Part shown: piece by piece, positions 1,895 through 64,000 of the stretch
Layout: every line of letters begins with the position of its first letter
Position numbering within the stretch: the first letter of the stretch is position 1
From: Solobacterium sp.
GTDB taxonomy: Bacteria; Bacillota_I; Bacilli_A; Erysipelotrichales; Erysipelotrichaceae
NCBI GenBank assembly: GCA_017512555.1
Contig: JAFWFE010000009.1
Span: 1-64,000 of the forward strand
Length of the DNA: 64,000 nucleotides
Direction: 5' to 3'
The notes under the pieces: model-generated
The model's database searches: none
What the model was told of the DNA's origin: nothing
The model's input: only the letters and a program-made list of their open reading frames with translations
Translations under genes and position numbers: made by a program

Positions 1895-2852
1895 TTAACA
1901 ATTCGCATAGATCTCTGTAGATTGGATGGTCCTTGACAGATAGTCTCTTACAGAGCTCTTCGGATTGAAACAGAGATCCCTGCAGTAACTCCGGGATCAC
2001 ATCAATGATATCCGGCTCCATGGAATCAGACCATACCGACACATGAGTCACTATGCCATGTTCCACCCGGAATTCAAGACGTATACTGCCCCAGGGGAAC
2101 CGCTTCTCACAAGATGTATCGAAGGGTAGTTCCTGTCCGTAGATCCACTCTGGTGACGCAAACTTTGCGGTCCTTTGCGCAAGGACATCCACATCAGGCC
2201 GGGAATACATTTCCGCAGAAACACCGTATTCTTCTTCACATGCTTGGATCAAAGCAGTACGTACCTGATCAATCGTCAGCCCTGGTTTAACATCCGCAAG
2301 ATTTGTCACCCGGCTGCGTACGGAATCTACACCCCGTGCCTTGTATTTCTCCGGATCCGGTTGTAAATACACAGGCATCTTTGAGAGATCACTGTGGATG
2401 AGTAGTGTACCGTGCTGGTATGATTTACCGTTGTGATGATAATACGCATTCCCGGAGAACTTCTTTCCCTGGCAGAGAATATCATTTCTTCCGGTACATT
2501 CTGCCTCGATACCCAGTTTTCTTAAAGCATTACAGATGATCTGGGACTGCCGTTCTTCCGAATAATTCTCATCATCCGTCAGGAAGGTGAAATTCAGATT
2601 CCCCAGATCGTGATATACTGCTCCACCACCAGAAGAGCGGCGTACAAGATGTACGCCGTCTCTTTTGATTTCATTTAATCTGCATTCTTTGCGAACGTTC
2701 TGATTCCTGCCGATGACTACTGTATTGTCATTCTGCCAGAGATACAGGATCATCTCATGAAAATTCACCTGATCCATCAGAACGGATTCCAAAGCCAGAT
2801 TTTCTGTCGGGTTTGTTCCTGAGGCTTCAATCAGATAAAGCCTGTTAATCAT
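1881..2852 (-). CDS. lplA: Lipoate-protein ligase A
   Basis: Attaches free lipoate, by way of lipoyl-AMP, to lipoyl-domain lysines; here the obvious target is GcvH from the same operon. The 323 residues match the LplA family. The lipoyl-adenylate loop RRSSGGGAVYHD is at residues 71-82, followed by GNLNFTF, and FSGNAYYHHNGKSYQHGTLL-type residues line the lipoate pocket further on. The start overlaps the end of gcvPB by 8 nt. It is the last gene of the glycine cleavage operon and ends in a hairpin shared with the convergent gene. Confidence 0.93.
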   Translation of the reverse strand: MINRLYLIEASGTNPTENLALESVLMDQVNFHEMILYLWQNDNTVVIGRNQNVRKECRLNEIKRDGVHLVRRSSGGGAVYHDLGNLNFTFLTDDENYSEERQSQIICNALRKLGIEAECTGRNDILCQGKKFSGNAYYHHNGKSYQHGTLLIHSDLSKMPVYLQPDPEKYKARGVDSVRSRVTNLADVKPGLTIDQVRTALIQACEEEYGVSAEMYSRPDVDVLAQRTAKFASPEWIYGQELPFDTSCEKRFPWGSIRLEFRVEHGIVTHVSVWSDSMEPDIIDVIPELLQGSLFQSEELCKRLSVKDHPIYRDLCELLKEQV

Positions 2853-4272
2853 TGAACGGGAAACGCAGAACCGGTTTTCTTGCGGCAGTTACTTCATCCG
2901 GACGAGTGATCGCAGAATGATGCGGTGCACTGTGCAGATATTCAGGATCTTCCAGAGCTTTCGCATGGAGTTCGAGGAAGATCTTCGCAACTTCATCCAG
3001 AGTTTCCTTGGTCTCTGTTTCGGTCGGTTCTACCATCAATGCTTCATGTACATTCAGAGGGAAGTACATTGTCGGCGGATGAATACCATAATCCTGCAGT
3101 GCTTTCGCAATATCCATTGCACTAACACCATTGATTTTCTTCATCTCTTCCATGGTGATAACAAACTCGTGCATGCAGATACCCTTATTTGTAACATCAT
3201 AGGTTGTTTCCAGGAGATGCTTCAGATAGTTAGCGTTAAGAACTGCATTCTTGGCAACTTCCGGAACACCTTCACGACCTAATGTGAGGAGGTAGGTGAA
3301 TGCCTTTACGACAACCAGGAAGTTTCCGTGGAATCCACGTACAGCACCGATACTCTCAGCACCACGAGGATCCAATGCATACTCACCGTCTTTTTCAACG
3401 ATGCGTTCACCAGGCAGATATGGTTCGAGGAATGCTTTACATCCTACAGGACCGCTACCAGGACCGCCTCCTCCATGAGGGGTGGAGAAGGATTTATGCA
3501 GGTTCAGGTGGATACAGTCAAAGCCCATATCACCAGGTCTTACGATACCCATGACAGCATTCAGGTTAGCACCATCGTAGTAGCACAGACCACCAGCTTC
3601 ATGAACGATCTTTGTGATTTCAGAAATATTCTTATCAAAGATACCAAGAGTATTCGGGTTGGTAAGCATCAATCCGGCAGTATCTTCACCGCAGGCTTCT
3701 CTCAGCTTATCGAGATCTACACATCCATCCGGAGCGGAAGGAATGTTGATGACGGTGAATCCGCACATTGCGGAACTGGCAGGGTTTGTACCATGCGCAG
3801 AGTCCGGAACGATGATCTTATTACGCTGTGTGTTGCCTTTCAGTTCATGATAACGCTTGATCAGTAATAATCCGGTCATTTCACCGTGAGCGCCGGCAGC
3901 CGGCTGGAATGTCATCGCATCCATTCCGGTGATCTCGCACAGGTATTCTTCTGCTGTATGGAGCAGTTCCAGACATCCTTGTACATGATCCTGTGTAGGA
4001 TGGATATTCTTGAAGCCAGGCAGGGCAGCTGCGGTTTCATTGATCTTCGGATTGTACTTCATTGTGCAGGAACCCAGAGGATAGAATCCATCGTTAACAC
4101 CGAAGGTCTGCTTTGCCAGTTCGGTATAGTGACGGCTGATATCTGTCTCTGACAGTTCCGGCAGTCTCATTTCACTCTTTCTGGTGATTTCCGGTGTACA
4201 TTCCGGAACATCACATGCCGGCAGGATGGTACAGTGTCTTCCGGTCACGCTTCTTTCAAAAAGTGTTTTCAT
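2845..4272 (-). CDS. gcvPB: Glycine dehydrogenase (decarboxylating) subunit 2
   Basis: C-terminal half of the P-protein of the glycine cleavage system, found as a separate subunit in many Bacillota and archaea. It decarboxylates glycine and passes aminomethyl to the lipoyl arm of GcvH. The PLP lysine is Lys260 in HLNLHKSFSTPHGGGGPG. Length (475 aa) is normal for the two-subunit form. It overlaps gcvPA by 4 nt (ATGA) and lplA by 8 nt, so translation of the three is probably coupled. Confidence 0.96.
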   Translation of the reverse strand: MKTLFERSVTGRHCTILPACDVPECTPEITRKSEMRLPELSETDISRHYTELAKQTFGVNDGFYPLGSCTMKYNPKINETAAALPGFKNIHPTQDHVQGCLELLHTAEEYLCEITGMDAMTFQPAAGAHGEMTGLLLIKRYHELKGNTQRNKIIVPDSAHGTNPASSAMCGFTVINIPSAPDGCVDLDKLREACGEDTAGLMLTNPNTLGIFDKNISEITKIVHEAGGLCYYDGANLNAVMGIVRPGDMGFDCIHLNLHKSFSTPHGGGGPGSGPVGCKAFLEPYLPGERIVEKDGEYALDPRGAESIGAVRGFHGNFLVVVKAFTYLLTLGREGVPEVAKNAVLNANYLKHLLETTYDVTNKGICMHEFVITMEEMKKINGVSAMDIAKALQDYGIHPPTMYFPLNVHEALMVEPTETETKETLDEVAKIFLELHAKALEDPEYLHSAPHHSAITRPDEVTAARKPVLRFPFND

Positions 4273-13043: not shown

Positions 13044-14171
13044 ATGGAAAATAAGTACTATTCCTATCCTGAAATCACCAACTGGGGTGATCCTACCGTA
13101 GATGCTCCGGACTTCCGCAGCGGTGTCGTATCCCTGGCGAAAGAACAGAAGTGGGTCGCGCCATACTACAACCTGGAACAGATGATGCATACGATCACCG
13201 GTGAAAGTATGATGATCGCGGCAGAGCTGGAAAAGAAATATACCGACATCCGTGATCAGGGTTTAAAGGACTTCTGGAACAGTAAAGGTCTACAGTACGA
13301 AGTACATACCACCAAAGGTGAAGACTGGTTATCCTTTGTGCCGAAGAGTGCCATGGAAGGAAATGAGAAGTTACCGGTGATGTGCGCGTTCCGGGCTGCC
13401 TGTGTATTTGCGCAGAGTTTCTACTACGACATGGCCATGATCGCGGCACAGGGAGAAATGATCCTGCTGATCTTCTCTACGGAAGATAAGGATGAGAATG
13501 AACTTTGGCTGGATATCCTGAAAGAAGCGGAGAGTATCTATCCAATCGATAACACAAGAGTCTATCTTACCGGACATTCCCACTACGGGGAATTTGCCCT
13601 GGAATTCATGCGCAGACATCATGAGATCATTGCGGCTGTTGCCCAGCAGGGTGATCGTCCGGGCCTTGTGCCTCATTTCAGTGATGATGCGGCAATGGAG
13701 AAGATGCACACGTTTGACTGCCCGGTGAGTATCGCTTCCGGTACCGCCGAGATGACCCAGCACTTCCCGCTGAATACTCCGGCGCCGAGATATGACGCAT
13801 GGAATGAAAGACTACGCGCAGTGATGCCCGGAACACTTGAACAGAGAGTATCCTCCTGGCAGAGAAGACTGTACGGATCCCGCTGTGAAACCGTGACAAA
13901 AGAAGAAATGCTTGCCTGTGCGGAAAGTCCCAACAAGGCGTTGAGAGTTCTTGGTTTCCCGTGTGATGATGCGTATACATTGTGGATCGATGGTGTGGAA
14001 GTCTATGTCGGGGATATTAAGAATGTGGACGGCAGAAAGCACCTGCAGGTGGTTGCTGTAGAGAATCTCTCACATACGACTTGTAAGGCGCAGCACTTGA
14101 TGAGTTGGACATTTGTCCGTAGATTTGCCAGAGATCTTGAGAATGATCTGGTTGTAGAACTGTACGAGTAG
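13044..14171 (+). CDS. Alpha/beta-hydrolase, paralogue 2 of 3
   Basis: 375 aa. Same layout as copy 1: N-terminal YYSYPEITNWGDPTVDAPDF, nucleophile Ser179 in TGHSHYG, and C-terminal VENLSHTTCKAQHLMSW with a candidate catalytic His. GGGAGG lies before the ATG. It is closer to copy 3 than to copy 1; an 80-bp stretch (13320-13399) is identical to 14452-14531. That indicates recent duplication or gene conversion. Only 4 nt separate it from copy 3. Confidence 0.7.
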   Translation: MENKYYSYPEITNWGDPTVDAPDFRSGVVSLAKEQKWVAPYYNLEQMMHTITGESMMIAAELEKKYTDIRDQGLKDFWNSKGLQYEVHTTKGEDWLSFVPKSAMEGNEKLPVMCAFRAACVFAQSFYYDMAMIAAQGEMILLIFSTEDKDENELWLDILKEAESIYPIDNTRVYLTGHSHYGEFALEFMRRHHEIIAAVAQQGDRPGLVPHFSDDAAMEKMHTFDCPVSIASGTAEMTQHFPLNTPAPRYDAWNERLRAVMPGTLEQRVSSWQRRLYGSRCETVTKEEMLACAESPNKALRVLGFPCDDAYTLWIDGVEVYVGDIKNVDGRKHLQVVAVENLSHTTCKAQHLMSWTFVRRFARDLENDLVVELYE

Positions 14172-56543: not shown

Positions 56544-58265
56544 ATGCGTACATTGTGGAAGTATATACGCCCGTTTCTGCGGGTAATCGCCATCGGATTA
56601 ACGGCCAAGGCAGCCGGGGCTATCCTGGAGCTGCTGATTCCGTATATCATGTCCATGATCATTGACGACATCGTTCCCCAGAGGGATATTCAGGCGATCA
56701 TCTTATGGTCATGTGTCATGGTTCTTTGCGCGTTCATCGGCTGGAGAGCGAATATCTATGCCAACCGCAATGCTTCCAAAGTCTCCCGGGATATTACGGA
56801 AAACTTACGTAATGACCTCTTTGACAAGACCCTGTACCTGTCTTCCGAGAAGACGGATCAGTTTACAATACCTTCTCTGGAAACACGTTTGACAACCGAT
56901 ACATATCATATCCACAGGATGCTGGGAATGATGCAGAGAGTAGGTATACGCGGTCCGATTATCATGGTCGGAGGTCTGTTCATCACCTTCTTCATGGAAC
57001 CGGTATTATCGCTGGTCTTACTTGCCACGATTCCGTTTATCGGTGTACTGGTCTATATCCGCGCAACCCAGGGTGTGCCCCTGTTTACCCATGTACAGAA
57101 AGTAGAAGACAGGATGGTTGGCGTTGTGCGTGAAAACGCGCAAGGTATCCGCGTTGTCAAGGCGCTGAGCCGGGAAGAGTATGAAAAGAACCGCTACCAG
57201 AAAGTTAATGACGAACTCAAAGAAACACGGATCACAGCGAATAAGAGAATGGCTCTGATCAATCCGGCGATGAATTTCTTCCTGAATGTCGGTCTGACGG
57301 CAGTACTGATCGTCGGCGCTTACCGTGTCAGTTCCGGAATATCCGAGACCGGTAAGATCATCGCGTTCATGTCTTACTTTACGATTATTTCCAGGTCGAT
57401 GATGTCCATCAGCCGTATCTTTATCATGTATTCCCAAGGTGCTGCCAGTGCCAACCGTATTGAAGAAGTCCTGCTGTGCGACAGTGAGAAAGACTGGCTT
57501 CCGCAGAATATTCCGGATGGTGACCCGGAATATACGATTTGTTTTGACCATGTCCATTTCTCCTACCTGAAAGTAAAAGAAAATGTATCGGACATCACTT
57601 TCCGTCTGAAAAAGGGAGAAACGCTGGGAATCATCGGCGCGACCGGTTCCGGCAAGAGTACGATCATGTCTTTATTACTGCGGTTCTATGACGTGGATTC
57701 CGGCGCTATTTATATCAACGGCAAGGACATCCGCAATATCCCTCCGTCCGAGCTCCGCAGACGCTTTGGTATTGTCATGCAGAATGACTTCCTGTTCCGT
57801 GACACGATTGCGGAGAATATCCGCTTCGGCAGAGATGTCAGTGATGAAGCGATGGAACAAGCTGTACATACCGCGCAGGCTTCCGAGTTTATCGACAGTC
57901 TGGATGAAAAATATGAGTATATGCTTACCGGGAAAGGCGCGAATCTTTCCGGCGGACAGAAACAGAGAGTTCTTTTGTCCAGGGCTTTTGCGGCTGATCC
58001 GGAATTTCTCTGTCTGGATGATTCCAGCAGTGCGCTGGACTATGCGACAGACGCAAGATTACGCCGGGCACTCAGTGAAGCACATCCGGATTCTACGCTG
58101 ATCATCATTGCCCAGAGAGTTTCTTCGGTGAAGAATTGTGACCAGATCCTGATGTTGGATGAAGGCAGGATCACGGCTTCCGGTACACATGAAGAATTAC
58201 TGGAGATCAGTCCTCTGTACGCGTCAATCTATGAATCACAGATGGGAGGTGCTCTCTTTGACTAA
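56544..58265 (+). CDS. Heterodimeric ABC exporter, subunit with degenerate site
   Basis: 573 aa: six-TM exporter domain (1-310), nucleotide-binding domain with GATGSGKST near residue 365, LSGGQ at 468-472 and Walker B FLCLDD where Asp493 replaces the catalytic Glu. A canonical LSGGQ with a non-catalytic Walker B is the TM287/BmrC-type half of heterodimeric exporters. Partner overlaps by 8 nt. Exported substrate (drug, lipid or peptide) is unknown. Confidence 0.9.
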   Translation: MRTLWKYIRPFLRVIAIGLTAKAAGAILELLIPYIMSMIIDDIVPQRDIQAIILWSCVMVLCAFIGWRANIYANRNASKVSRDITENLRNDLFDKTLYLSSEKTDQFTIPSLETRLTTDTYHIHRMLGMMQRVGIRGPIIMVGGLFITFFMEPVLSLVLLATIPFIGVLVYIRATQGVPLFTHVQKVEDRMVGVVRENAQGIRVVKALSREEYEKNRYQKVNDELKETRITANKRMALINPAMNFFLNVGLTAVLIVGAYRVSSGISETGKIIAFMSYFTIISRSMMSISRIFIMYSQGAASANRIEEVLLCDSEKDWLPQNIPDGDPEYTICFDHVHFSYLKVKENVSDITFRLKKGETLGIIGATGSGKSTIMSLLLRFYDVDSGAIYINGKDIRNIPPSELRRRFGIVMQNDFLFRDTIAENIRFGRDVSDEAMEQAVHTAQASEFIDSLDEKYEYMLTGKGANLSGGQKQRVLLSRAFAADPEFLCLDDSSSALDYATDARLRRALSEAHPDSTLIIIAQRVSSVKNCDQILMLDEGRITASGTHEELLEISPLYASIYESQMGGALFD

Positions 58266-60009
58266 TAAGAAAAGAGATCGTAAAGGGATCATCCTGCGTC
58301 TGTTGACTTATCTGTTCCATGATAAGTATCTGATGGCACTGGCTCTGGTCATCACCTTTATAGGAAATTATATCAATCTTCTGGTACCCAGATATTCCGG
58401 GAATGCCGTAGACGCGATCAGCGCACCAGGTGGTGTGGATTTTGCCGGTGTTTTCCTCAACTGCCGGAATATGATGATCTGTGTGGTGATCAACGTGATC
58501 ATGACCTATTCGACACAGAGGATCCTGATCTATATTTCCGCAAGTATTACCAACCGTATGCGCAAACAGGTATTTGATCATCTGATGACCATGCCGGTAA
58601 GTTTCTTTGACCAGCACCAGGCCGGAGATATCATTTCGCGTATTTCCTACGATATCAATACGATCAATACATCCCTGTCCGGAGATCTGATCGTATTGCT
58701 GACAACGGCAATAACCGTCATCGGTTCGTTCATCATGATGGTGCGTATCTCCCCGAGAATGTGTATTATCTTCTTCTTTACGACACCGATGATCCTGTTG
58801 ATCACCAGACACAGAGCGAAGAAGGTCAGACCTTTATTCAGCCGCAGATCACGTTTACTTGGTGAATTGAACGGCTTTACGGAAGAGATGTTATCCGGAC
58901 ATAAGACGATCAAAGGATATGGTCAGGAAGAAACGATTATCAGTAAGTTCGCCAAGCGTAATCTGGAGTCTGTGGACGCTTACTACGAAGCAGAGTTCCA
59001 GGGAAGTATTGTCGGTCCTACCGTACAGTTTATCAATAACTTTTCATTGGCGGTTGTGTCCGGGTTCGGCGCGATTCTCTATCTCAGACAGATGATTTCC
59101 ATCGGGAATATCTCCTCGTTTATCATGTATTCCCGCCGGTTCAGCGGACCGATCAGTGAGACTGCCAACATTTTCGCAGAACTGCAGTCAGCACTTTCTG
59201 CCGCGGAACGTGTATTCGCGTTGATTGATCAGCCGAGTGAGAAAGCAGATGATCCTGACGCGTATGTGTTTGAACATCCGGAAGGAAATGTGGACTTTGA
59301 CCAGGTACGCTTCAGTTATATTCCCGGTACAGAAATACTTCACGGTCTGGATATCCATGCGCATCCTGGGAAAATGGTCGCCATCGTCGGTCCTACCGGG
59401 GCAGGCAAGACAACGATCATCAACCTGTTGATGCGGTTCTACGATCCGGATTCCGGCGTGATCTCTATTGACGGTCATGACATTCTTCACGCAACGAGAA
59501 CTTCTCTGCGTAAGCATTTCTCCATGGTTCTGCAGGATACCTGGCTGTTTAAGGGGACAATCTATGAGAACGTTGCGTATGGTAATGACAACGCGACCAG
59601 GGAAGATGTCATCAACGCCTGTAAGGCAGCGCATATCGATGAGTTTATCATGAGTCTGAAGGATGGCTATGATACCGTGCTTACCGATGACGGTGTAAAT
59701 ATCTCCAAGGGACAGAAACAGCTTCTGACGATTGCCAGGGCGATGTTAAGTGAGTCAAAGATGCTGATCCTGGATGAAGCTACTTCAAACGTAGACTCCT
59801 ACACGGAACAGCAGATCCAGGAAGCGATACGTAATCTGTGCAAGGATAAGACGACGTTTATCATTGCGCATCGTCTTTCAACGATACAGTCTGCGGACCA
59901 GATCCTTGTGCTGGATCACGGCACGATCATCGAACAGGGAACACACGATGAACTTCTGGAGAAGAGAGGATTCTACGCAAGATTATTCAATGCCCAGTGG
60001 GAGACATAG
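58258..60009 (+). CDS. Heterodimeric ABC exporter, catalytic subunit
   Basis: 583 aa. Six-TM domain, Walker A GPTGAGKTT, a diverged signature ISKGQ (482-486), and Walker B LILDEATSNVD with catalytic Glu507. Complements the first subunit so that only one composite ATP site is fully active. TTG 58258 is chosen as start because GGGAGG (58244-58249) lies 8 nt before it; the frame open from 58159 lies within the previous gene. Confidence 0.88.
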   Translation: MTNKKRDRKGIILRLLTYLFHDKYLMALALVITFIGNYINLLVPRYSGNAVDAISAPGGVDFAGVFLNCRNMMICVVINVIMTYSTQRILIYISASITNRMRKQVFDHLMTMPVSFFDQHQAGDIISRISYDINTINTSLSGDLIVLLTTAITVIGSFIMMVRISPRMCIIFFFTTPMILLITRHRAKKVRPLFSRRSRLLGELNGFTEEMLSGHKTIKGYGQEETIISKFAKRNLESVDAYYEAEFQGSIVGPTVQFINNFSLAVVSGFGAILYLRQMISIGNISSFIMYSRRFSGPISETANIFAELQSALSAAERVFALIDQPSEKADDPDAYVFEHPEGNVDFDQVRFSYIPGTEILHGLDIHAHPGKMVAIVGPTGAGKTTIINLLMRFYDPDSGVISIDGHDILHATRTSLRKHFSMVLQDTWLFKGTIYENVAYGNDNATREDVINACKAAHIDEFIMSLKDGYDTVLTDDGVNISKGQKQLLTIARAMLSESKMLILDEATSNVDSYTEQQIQEAIRNLCKDKTTFIIAHRLSTIQSADQILVLDHGTIIEQGTHDELLEKRGFYARLFNAQWET

Positions 60010-60115: not shown

Positions 60116-63100
60116 ATGCTTGGAAAAAAGTGGCTGATGATTCTGCTGACGTTGTTTCTTTCTTTTGGAAGTTTCTCTTATACGCTGTCTGCGGAAGAAA
60201 ATGAACCTGCAGATCCGCCGGAAGAAATTACGGAAACAGAGATTCCGGAAGAAACAGAAACATCTGAACCAGAAGAGAATCAAGAGGATAAAGAGGGTAC
60301 AGATACAGTCCCGGAGAATGTGTCCGGGAAAGTAATTGACCGGATCGATATTGGTGATGTGTCCATGGAAATTGATATTGCGCAATCCGAAGAAGCGTAT
60401 ATCTTGAGTGTGCTGCCGGCACAGGCATCCGTGCACTTTGCGGATACAGACACGGACGGTATCGTGGATATTCACTGGTCCGGAGAAGAATACCAGGAAA
60501 ATACCTATGGCAGTTTTACTTTCTGCGCGGAACTAGATTCGGCCTATGAAGTTGTCTGTGACCTTCCTCTGGCAGAAGTAAAGGTAACCATGGATGTGTC
60601 TTCCTATATCGCAAAAGACCAGAAAAAGTCCATGCGTAAGCTCAGGAAAACACGTGCTTCCGGTACGCCGGTCAAAGATCAGATTCTCAGTGAATACACT
60701 AAGACAGAAGAAATCCTGACGACAGATCCCGCCAAGGCAGATCCGGTACAGAAGAATTACCGGGAGGCAGAAGGGAATACGGATACACAGTATCTGGTGA
60801 AGTCGGCGGAATGGACGGATATCCATATCGGGGAAGCGAAGATCCGTATGGCAGCTTCCCGGACATTTGATGTGGAGACTGGTTCTTCTCATGCCTTGTT
60901 TGTGTTTACGGATTGTCCCTCTCACGGATGGACGTTAAACAAGGCTCTGGATAAGGTCAGTGATCTTCTGGATCATTATCAGAGAGTGACATTGGGCAGG
61001 ATCATCGGACCCAATGAAGACGGGATTCTGCTTGGGGATGTGTCTAAGGATCCGGAGGATGATAACTACTATGTTTACCAGTTGATGGAGATGCCCTGGC
61101 ATGGCGGGGATCATTACTCGTTAAATGTTTACGCGGCTTTATACAAGTATTTCTTCGGGAGTTTTGATTCTGTGACACCGGCTGCGCAGAATCTCTGGCC
61201 GACCGTGATCTACGTGCAGTATGACAATTTGTATGAACCGTGTAACTATCCGGCTGTGGCAGGCTTGCCGGCCGTAACGAATGTCGGTGTGTGCGATGCC
61301 TATGGTATGCACTACTCTACAGGAACGAATACCGGGCACAGGGCAAGGTATGACTCCAGCGGGCAGGCGTATGCGCTGGGCAATGCAGGAAGAGCAGACT
61401 CTCCCATCTGGGATATTCTGAAACAATACAAGGAACAAGGACGATACTTTTCCTATGCGCTGGATGGCACATTTGCGACAAGAGGTGTGTTCTCACGTTG
61501 GGAGAATACTTCTGTAATCAACGCTTCGGATATCTTCCGTCTGAATATCTTTGCGGGTCTTGCGCAGCCTCTGGTGTATGATCCTGCCACAGCGTTACAT
61601 GTCCCCCTGCTGAATGACATCTACCAGCGTCAGAACTGCATTTACAATTCAGATACAGGTTGGCAGCACGTCTATAACCTCGATGAACGGTTCCAGCCGG
61701 ATTATTCCAGTGTTCAGGAGTATACGGATAAGATCGATCCTCATCCTCAAAATATGATTTTGTCAGATGTTGTATCTGAGGATTATGAGATCCTGGATGT
61801 ACAATCAAACAAGGATAATGCGGTTGTAGAGATCCATGGTTCAGAAGTATCGGTTACTTTCCCGGATTATGCGTCAGGGGAAGAAGCCAGTGTGGAGATC
61901 TCTGTAAAAGCCCGCTATGGCACACGGAAAGACTGGGGAGATACCAACCTTGGGAATGGCCGTTCCGGTTCCAGTACCAGTGATACATCCGCAGTATATA
62001 CATATCAGGAAGTGGCTTCTCCGGTACTGACCAGAGATGGATATACCCTGACAATTCATTATCTGGAGAAAGACAGTGAGAAAGTCTTACATCCTCCGTA
62101 TACAGGGGTATATGCAGGAGGGGAGGAATATGATGTATTCTCCCCGGAGATCCTGATGTATGCACTGGTTGATGAAAATGACAAAGAGGTCAAGGGTGTG
62201 ATGCCGTATGAAGATAAGGTCATCTATGTGTACTACGAAAGGGATATTTCGGTTGCTGAACCAATCCGGGTAACAAAAAAAGTCACTGGTCTGGAAGATC
62301 CGCAGGATACGTTCCGTTTTCAACTGATTCCGGAGAATCCGCAGAATCCCATGCCTGAAGATGGTGTGGATATCCTTTCCATCAAAGGGAATGGAAGCGC
62401 TGAGTTCGCGGTGATTCACTTTCCGTTTGACGGAGAATATGTCTATAAGGTGAAAGAACTGGATGACGGACAGTTTGGCTATACCATGGACCAGACGGTG
62501 TACACCGTGAGGTATGTTGTGGAAGAGGGAAAAGTCTACAGAACGATTTCTGATCCTTCCATCACCCCGAAAGAAGAAACCATCACTTTCAGTTATACCG
62601 GTGATGTACAGACCTTCACAGCACCTGAGATTGGTTTCTATACTCTGGAAGCCTGGGGTGCGCAGGGTGGTGCTGCGGCAGCCGGGTCTGGTGGTGAAGG
62701 CGGATATGCCAAAGGGACGATTGCGATGGATAAGGGTGATACGATCTATGTTGTTGTCGGCGGACAGGGCGGTAAGGCTGCCAATGGTAAGAATCCAGCC
62801 GGTGGTTATAACGGAGGAGGCAGAGGACACAGCTGGGATATTACGAACTATGATGATACAGGCGCGGTTACCGGTCATACTTACCGCAACGGTGCAGCCG
62901 GCGGTGGTGCAACGCATTTTGCGTCAGCGGATGGTGTATTATCCTCTCTGGAAAATAATAAAAATGCGGTGATTCTCGCGGCTGGTGGTGGTGGCGGCGC
63001 AGGTATGTTCCAGAAAGCCGGACAGAAGGAAGATGATCCGCGAAGTAATAACTGGAATCCGGAAATCTGGAAGAACTCTGGTAAAGGCGGAGGTCTTGAA

Positions 63101-64000
63101 GGTGGTATCGGCGGTTACGGCATTCAGCATCACTGTAAAGGAGGTACACAGACCAATGGTTACGGCTTTGGCAAAGGACAGCCGTCCGACAGCGGTGTAG
63201 GTGCCGGCGGCGGAGGATGGTTCGGAGGAAGGAAATTTACTCCGGGATCGGCAGTCGGCAGCGGAGGATCCGGGTATATCCAGTCACCGGAAACACTCTC
63301 TTCTTTGCGTATACAGCCGGAGTATCCACTGACTGATGCGTCCACAGAACTGGGTGGAAGAACCGGAAACGGCATGGCCAGAATCACGTATAAGATCTCC
63401 AACGAGACCGGAGAAGCTTCTTTTACCAACACCTATACCGTAACAGATACAGAGAAGTACGCTGTTGCCGAAATGCGTATACAGAAGACGATCCGGGGTC
63501 AGAATGTACAGAAAAGCACACTCAGATTTGTGGTGGAACCGGATGATGACAGCTATCCGATGCCGGAATCTCCAGAACAGGTCCTGGAGACCGATCATTC
63601 AGAAGTCGTTTCTTTCGGAGAGATTACCTTTACACGGCCTGGAACCTATTCTTACTTAATCAAGGAAATACGCGATCCGGAAACCAGACAGTTCACCTGG
63701 GCAGAAGATCTGAAGATAACCTACGTCGTCAGAGAAAACAAAGACGGCGGAGAATTGATTGTAACGCAGGAAGGAGAAGAATTGCCTGAGATGATCAATT
63801 ACTGGAATACATATGATCTGGTCATCGCTAAGACAGGAATAGACGAAGATTTTGAGGATATCGAGTTTATCGTCCAGACTGCATCAGAAGCAGGAGAAGA
63901 AGAGAAGTACGCGTTGTTTGAGAAAACGGAAAGCGGAGAATACCTGTTAAATGGAGAAACCGGCAAACAGGAAGAAGCTTCCATACTGAAACTGAACAAG
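60116..64000 (+). CDS. Large secreted adhesin with pilin-type repeats and glycine-rich domain (partial)
   Basis: Open from ATG 60116 to the right edge (1,295 residues seen, no stop). Signal peptide (KKWLMILLTLFLSFGSFSYTLSA), Glu/Thr/Pro-rich linker, a large uncharacterised N-terminal region, a MucBP-like segment near 640 (YTLTIHYLEKDSEKVLHPP), a Spy0128/FctA-type pilin isopeptide domain (about 716-815), an ALK/LTK-like glycine-rich domain (about 821-1095), a second pilin-type domain (about 1110-1230) and the start of a third. Probably sortase-anchored, but the C-terminus is not in view. GAGG stands 8 nt before the ATG. Confidence 0.85.
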   Translation, partial: MLGKKWLMILLTLFLSFGSFSYTLSAEENEPADPPEEITETEIPEETETSEPEENQEDKEGTDTVPENVSGKVIDRIDIGDVSMEIDIAQSEEAYILSVLPAQASVHFADTDTDGIVDIHWSGEEYQENTYGSFTFCAELDSAYEVVCDLPLAEVKVTMDVSSYIAKDQKKSMRKLRKTRASGTPVKDQILSEYTKTEEILTTDPAKADPVQKNYREAEGNTDTQYLVKSAEWTDIHIGEAKIRMAASRTFDVETGSSHALFVFTDCPSHGWTLNKALDKVSDLLDHYQRVTLGRIIGPNEDGILLGDVSKDPEDDNYYVYQLMEMPWHGGDHYSLNVYAALYKYFFGSFDSVTPAAQNLWPTVIYVQYDNLYEPCNYPAVAGLPAVTNVGVCDAYGMHYSTGTNTGHRARYDSSGQAYALGNAGRADSPIWDILKQYKEQGRYFSYALDGTFATRGVFSRWENTSVINASDIFRLNIFAGLAQPLVYDPATALHVPLLNDIYQRQNCIYNSDTGWQHVYNLDERFQPDYSSVQEYTDKIDPHPQNMILSDVVSEDYEILDVQSNKDNAVVEIHGSEVSVTFPDYASGEEASVEISVKARYGTRKDWGDTNLGNGRSGSSTSDTSAVYTYQEVASPVLTRDGYTLTIHYLEKDSEKVLHPPYTGVYAGGEEYDVFSPEILMYALVDENDKEVKGVMPYEDKVIYVYYERDISVAEPIRVTKKVTGLEDPQDTFRFQLIPENPQNPMPEDGVDILSIKGNGSAEFAVIHFPFDGEYVYKVKELDDGQFGYTMDQTVYTVRYVVEEGKVYRTISDPSITPKEETITFSYTGDVQTFTAPEIGFYTLEAWGAQGGAAAAGSGGEGGYAKGTIAMDKGDTIYVVVGGQGGKAANGKNPAGGYNGGGRGHSWDITNYDDTGAVTGHTYRNGAAGGGATHFASADGVLSSLENNKNAVILAAGGGGGAGMFQKAGQKEDDPRSNNWNPEIWKNSGKGGGLEGGIGGYGIQHHCKGGTQTNGYGFGKGQPSDSGVGAGGGGWFGGRKFTPGSAVGSGGSGYIQSPETLSSLRIQPEYPLTDASTELGGRTGNGMARITYKISNETGEASFTNTYTVTDTEKYAVAEMRIQKTIRGQNVQKSTLRFVVEPDDDSYPMPESPEQVLETDHSEVVSFGEITFTRPGTYSYLIKEIRDPETRQFTWAEDLKITYVVRENKDGGELIVTQEGEELPEMINYWNTYDLVIAKTGIDEDFEDIEFIVQTASEAGEEEKYALFEKTESGEYLLNGETGKQEEASILKLNK

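Follow-up and report, generated by a model that had tools for sequence, protein, structure and literature searches.

A glycine-rich domain of the ALK/LTK type nested inside an isopeptide pilin-type domain of a putative Solobacterium adhesin

Why would a bacterial surface protein carry a domain that resembles the glycine-rich part of ALK and LTK, two animal receptors, and what might such a domain do at the bacterial wall? This question is raised by a gene at the end of a 64,000-nucleotide stretch of DNA from Solobacterium sp. (contig JAFWFE010000009.1, positions 1 to 64,000), hereafter called the window. The gene starts at position 60116 on the forward strand and is truncated by the window end at 64000; the contig continues, and the full-length surface protein comprises 1893 amino acids, with its stop codon at position 65797 of the contig (C30; L002:617-6298). 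A first-pass annotation, made from the sequence without database searches, had placed an ALK/LTK-like glycine-rich domain at 62578-63400, had described it as flanked by isopeptide-type pilin domains, and had suggested that it may form the host- or glycan-binding tip of an adhesin. The peptide quoted in that annotation and the Gly-rich turns that follow it are indeed read in frame at this place, and the limits obtained here are 62582-63394.

The domain is an ALK/LTK-type glycine-rich domain, as judged by Pfam, by reversed and shuffled controls, by a bacterial profile and by the predicted fold. On the excised stretch, the Pfam model PF12810 (ALK_LTK_GRD) scores 114.3 bits over model positions 7-242 of 243, against a cut-off of 24.5 bits. 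The same family is recovered with 108.9 bits (E value 5.3e-31) when the full 1893-residue protein is searched, and with 109.7 bits on the in-window part of the gene. None of four control copies of the stretch (one reversed, three shuffled) matches any Pfam family. A second profile, built from 22 prokaryotic domain sequences including that of the window, was compared with the PDB, and all nine sequences found at E<=0.1 are ALK, LTK or worm SCD-2 (E values 1.2e-14 to 3.2e-11). NCBIfam holds no model that matches the domain, and a Pfam scan of the whole protein detects no EGF-like (epidermal growth factor-like), MAM or kinase domain.

Structure prediction leads to the same family. A ColabFold model of residues 707-1116, computed from a 34-row alignment, has a mean predicted local distance difference test (pLDDT) score of 85.2, and the first 21 ranks of a Foldseek search of the PDB with this model are all occupied by ALK, LTK or SCD-2 entries. 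When the model is aligned with ALK and LTK by VIA-align, 179-199 residues are matched with Z scores of 14.9-16.2 and a root-mean-square deviation (rmsd) of 3.0-4.1, the aligned part corresponding to model residues 112-388. The kinship asserted by the first-pass annotation is thus borne out by sequence profiles and predicted fold alike. For the polyglycine II helix bundle that the annotation also names, the comparison is one of alignment columns: each of the 14 polyglycine II segments that PMC13243192 gives for ALK falls on columns aligned in the bacterial profile, 12 of them fully or nearly and two partly, under a numbering offset that we deduced.

Profile matches and the predicted model show that this domain sits inside another, immediately ahead of the last strand of a Spy0128-like FctA domain (FctA domain 1). 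This placement is assigned because the FctA domain becomes complete without the insert, because known structures align across it, and because the isopeptide residues fit. The Pfam FctA match ahead of the insert is incomplete, covering model positions 1-101 of 120 if the protein is cut at residue 822 and 1-115 of 120 if it is extended, whereas removal of residues 823-1093 yields a single FctA domain spanning positions 1-120 of 120, with a score of 52.4 bits in place of 43.9. The model with the insert present still aligns across it to FctB and Spy0128 structures, from model residues 1-8 to 402-410, with Z scores of 12.4-15.6. Alignments also reveal a conserved candidate isopeptide triad, in which Lys721 on the first strand and Glu781 on the middle strand precede the insert and Asn1105 on the last strand follows it. 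The isopeptide-type domains said to flank the glycine-rich domain are present in that two FctA stretches score above the Pfam cut-off, but the insert interrupts the first of them rather than lying between two complete ones.

There is precedent for such nesting. According to a survey of isopeptide bonds, CnaA- and CnaB-like folds can accommodate additional domains, in most cases adhesion domains or further isopeptide domains, and RrgA and Spy0125 are described as folds with large domains between their bond-forming residues (PMC12617251). The layout found here obeys the same insertion rule with a different insert. The features of the gene, all on the forward strand, are as follows.

60116..64000 (+), surface-protein gene, with its stop past the window (open reading frame and contig continuation)
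60116..60193 (+), signal peptide, limits approximate (by-eye reading of the translation)
60632..62041 (+), N-terminal region, residues 173-642, possibly a head resembling von Willebrand factor A (vWA) (low-confidence model)
62045..62239 (+), MucBP-like stretch, residues 644-708 (19.1 bits, under the Pfam cut-off of 23)
62264..62581 (+), first part of FctA domain 1, residues 717-822, lacking the last strand only (Pfam)
62276..62278 (+), Lys721, likely isopeptide lysine (conserved in 4/4 sequences covering the position)
62456..62458 (+), Glu781, likely catalytic glutamate (conserved in 4/4 sequences covering the position)
62582..63394 (+), glycine-rich domain of the ALK/LTK type (TG-like), residues 823-1093, nested in FctA domain 1 (Pfam, profile and fold)
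63395..63451 (+), last strand of FctA domain 1, residues 1094-1112, after the insert (Pfam with the insert left out; model alignments)
63428..63430 (+), Asn1105, likely isopeptide asparagine (conserved in 5/5 sequences)
63476..63814 (+), FctA domain 2, uninterrupted (Pfam)

From the Pfam scan and inspection by eye, the whole protein consists of the signal peptide, the region of residues 173-642, the MucBP-like stretch, FctA domain 1 with its glycine-rich insert, FctA domain 2, four DUF11 stretches and a C-terminal membrane segment. Its C-terminus, also read by eye, carries an NIPTGI motif followed by a membrane helix and KK. A sortase gene that matches PF04203 lies directly downstream (contig positions 66004-66393), and this sortase probably attaches the surface protein by way of the xPTG-like C-terminal signal. 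The proposal that the protein is an adhesin is consistent with the signal peptide, the MucBP-like, FctA and DUF11 stretches, the sorting-like signal and the adjacent sortase, and its binding role is putative. Unlike LPXTG, the sorting-like motif differs between homologues; by eye it reads NIPTGI here (L002:6194-6295), NVRTGI in the homologue from genome G013 and YPTGV in G008b, one of two copies in genome G008.

Two ABC (ATP-binding cassette) exporter genes lie upstream of the surface-protein gene, at 56544-60009. No backbone pilin gene was seen by eye among the open reading frames listed downstream in L002, and no RNA families or transfer RNA genes were found in the window. The genome, which belongs to a group without cultured members, also contains a second large frame of 4502 residues with two FctA domains (G000:C63:93-1355, minus strand).

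The reading that we favour, and consider reasonably probable, is that the protein is a long wall-attached adhesin in which the glycine-rich domain serves as a side-mounted binding head held by an isopeptide-closed FctA domain. As would be expected from the behaviour of this family, a bond between Lys721 and Asn1105 would form, joining the first and last FctA strands and closing FctA at the base of the insert. If FctA is closed by this Lys-Asn bond, the insert would therefore become a loop off the main chain, and a pull on the protein would pass through the bond and leave the glycine-rich domain unloaded. The rigid glycine-rich bundle would hold variable loops sideways, and these loops might bind a protein or glycan, whether it belongs to the host, to mucus or to an adjacent cell, in the manner of phage receptor-binding domains. 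Receptor recognition by glycine-rich bundles is reported for phage Pam3 gp24 and PP01 gp38 (PMC9608196, PMC12892980), and in PP01 gp38 it is OmpC that is bound by loops on the glycine-rich lattice (PMC12892980).

The idea that the domain is the tip of the adhesin is not supported, because about 820 residues lie N-terminal of it (residues 823-1093 of 1893). The FctA domain around the insert itself begins only after about 700 residues of other sequence, among them the region of residues 173-642, which may, on the evidence of a low-confidence model (pLDDT 45.6), be a second, distal, vWA-like head. Seven Foldseek matches to this model reach E<=0.001, and they are to SpaC (three), integrin beta chains (three) and Mfa5. 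The metal ion-dependent adhesion site (MIDAS) motif of vWA domains is DxSxS; the candidate motif here reads TDCPSH in 4/4 sequences and is not canonical. A profile of the region found nothing significant in the PDB, where 13 weak matches to coagulation factor XI had E values of about 1.

Among 244 genomes of the family, this N-terminal region occurs in three, in a total of four genes, and all four carry the glycine-rich insert; no match to it was found in plasmids or viral contigs. Because the region is always accompanied by the insert, no empty socket, meaning the same N-terminal region and FctA domain without the insert, was encountered among the 244 genomes.

An unlikely alternative to the binding head is that the glycine-rich domain is a rigid, ligand-free spacer or stabiliser, with adhesion carried out by the N-terminal vWA-like region alone. 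This would suit both the purifying selection acting on the domain and its mid-protein position behind about 820 residues, part of which resembles SpaC-type pilus adhesins in the low-confidence model. However, sideways insertion into another domain does not lengthen a stalk, and phage and animal relatives of similar fold bind proteins. Moreover, the same domain lies near the N-terminus in three further proteins from the family (first residues 79, 91 and 237 within the frame), where it is accompanied by MucBP, and this fits a binding head better than a spacer. It is more doubtful still that the domain binds glycine-rich peptides or other glycine-rich domains by adding a strand to its helix bundle, making the adhesin adhere to itself or to proteins nearby. 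AlphaFold Server is reported to place hexaglycine on such a bundle with moderate confidence (2026, PMC13243192), but this is a prediction for a phage bundle, and nothing in the present locus favours it specifically.

We regard as very improbable the notion that the domain mimics ALK/LTK and traps the ALKAL cytokines of animals. Its fold matches the portion of ALK/LTK to which ALKAL binds in the PDB complexes listed, and one relative comes from goat jejunum, yet no EGF-like domain follows the glycine-rich domain, and domains of the same kind are present in many bacterial and phage proteins, mostly without an evident animal link. Almost negligible is the chance that the match to ALK/LTK is a compositional artefact of glycine richness. 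Although a single-sequence search of the PDB returned unrelated weak matches only, the silence of all four reversed or shuffled copies refutes this explanation; in addition, the non-glycine strands align as well, and profile and fold searches agree.

The case for an ALK/LTK-type binding head in a closed FctA domain is nevertheless weakened by several observations. The single-sequence search just mentioned, made with phmmer, missed ALK and gave ulvan lyase as its best match (E 0.001), and the Foldseek TM-scores to the 21 top-ranked entries are modest (TMq 0.27-0.36, rmsd 9-13 Angstrom). Model residues 261-280, where a binding loop could lie, are of low confidence (pLDDT about 51-55). The neighbouring sortase falls under every class-specific cut-off, the class C model giving 57.5 bits against a cut-off of 160. 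Diversifying selection is not seen within the domain, where nonsynonymous divergence (dN) is well under synonymous divergence (dS).

Within the genus, nested layouts were found in five genes from four genomes: the window gene, a pair in G008, and single genes in G013 and G546, the last on a contig that starts within the FctA domain. A sortase gene adjoins four of these five and is absent beside G008b (contig C100). The G008b neighbourhood encodes an ISL3 transposase, a TnpB-like IS605 protein and a serine recombinase (L043:92-1432, 2365-3696, 13255-14031). Between the window protein and its paralogue G008b, identity is 77% in the glycine-rich domain, compared with 36% in FctA domain 2 and 41% in DUF11. 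The syntenic G013 protein has a glycine-rich domain of a different type that is 55% identical to that of the window protein. A recent swap of the domain between paralogues, as in cassette exchange, was considered, but synonymous sites are near saturation, with dS 1.43 in the domain and 1.44 to 3.12 in the flanks, and so give no sign of recent exchange. The pattern of identities would be accounted for by an ancient exchange or by constraint acting within one domain type.

Across the genus, PF12810 exceeds its cut-off in 6 of 70 genomes, with G547 marginal at 24.7 bits. Wider draws, which overlap, recovered the domain in 15 of 296 genomes of the class and 9 of 392 genomes of the phylum. Most of these carriers belong to a single family (f12) with genomes of about 1 Mb and up to eight copies per genome. 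One f12 frame of 3029 residues combines three glycine-rich ALK-type domains with 12 cadherin-like stretches and a C-terminal dockerin (L049:1155-10241, minus strand). Among 39 frames listed, including two duplicates that arise where loci overlap (L037), five distinct frames have a GFTLIE start, resembling that of type IV prepilins, ahead of the glycine-rich domain. These five are from f12 genomes (L010:1060-2274, L010:2447-3712, L024, L031 and L032), and a Pfam N_methyl match was confirmed for L032. In f12 the domain may thus serve as a head on pilin-like proteins.

Relatives also occur in viral contigs and on a plasmid. At least 61 are present in viral contigs, and matches with E values of 1.9e-25 or better were obtained to three PHROG families whose function is unknown; a tblastn search of named phage records, run with the low-complexity filter on, matched no close relative. 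One annotated plasmid relative was found, named only 'glycine rich domain-containing protein'. Among the BFVD matches of the model, several phage proteins of this fold are named 'receptor protein-tyrosine kinase', which is probably a misnaming inherited from ALK. A broader and distinctly speculative view, to which we give little weight at present, is that prokaryotes and their phages have long used the ALK/LTK-type TG module as a portable head for receptor binding in many surface proteins, that it is mounted here in a covalently closed pilin socket off the load path, and that the ectodomain of the animal receptor kinases was derived from it.

The ALK/LTK glycine-rich fold has so far been studied mostly in animals and partly in phage fibres. 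The adhesin could therefore serve as a small, expressible system for asking what ligands the fold has outside animals, and it also offers a test of whether mechanical load can be kept off a binding head by an isopeptide clasp. Should the domain bind mucin or a host protein, this would name a class of gut adhesins. Bacterial members of the family are already covered by Pfam, and similar phage fibres have been solved; the new element is where the domain sits, within an isopeptide-type pilin domain of a putative gut adhesin. No description of an ALK-type glycine-rich domain inside an isopeptide domain was found in the literature listings searched, which include a minority of subscription papers.

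The nearest known systems each share some of these properties. With the TG region of ALK and LTK (PF12810), which is made up of TNF-like and glycine-rich parts, the domain has in common the order of elements over positions 7-242 of 243 and a predicted fold that aligns with Z scores of 15-16, whereas the surface protein has no EGF-like, MAM or kinase domain and holds the glycine-rich domain within FctA in a bacterial wall protein. The inserts of RrgA from S. pneumoniae and of Spy0125/Cpa from S. pyogenes are a vWA domain and a thioester domain. Like the present protein, RrgA and Spy0125/Cpa have a large insert between isopeptide residues, with the last bond-forming strand after the insert (PMC12617251). 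They differ in that their inserts are not glycine-rich and TG-like, and in that the host fold here is FctA/Spy0128-like. Among phage proteins, the combination of a TNF-like (tumour necrosis factor-like) part with a glycine-rich fold is shared by the solved structures of Pam3 gp24 (Z 9.4) and of a chain from the Bxb1 tail tip (Z 8.8), both compared with the predicted model. Unlike the protein described here, Pam3 gp24 is a trimeric phage protein whose assembly is assisted by a chaperone, and gp38 of S16 and PP01 is a phage protein in which a beta-helix replaces the TNF-like part.

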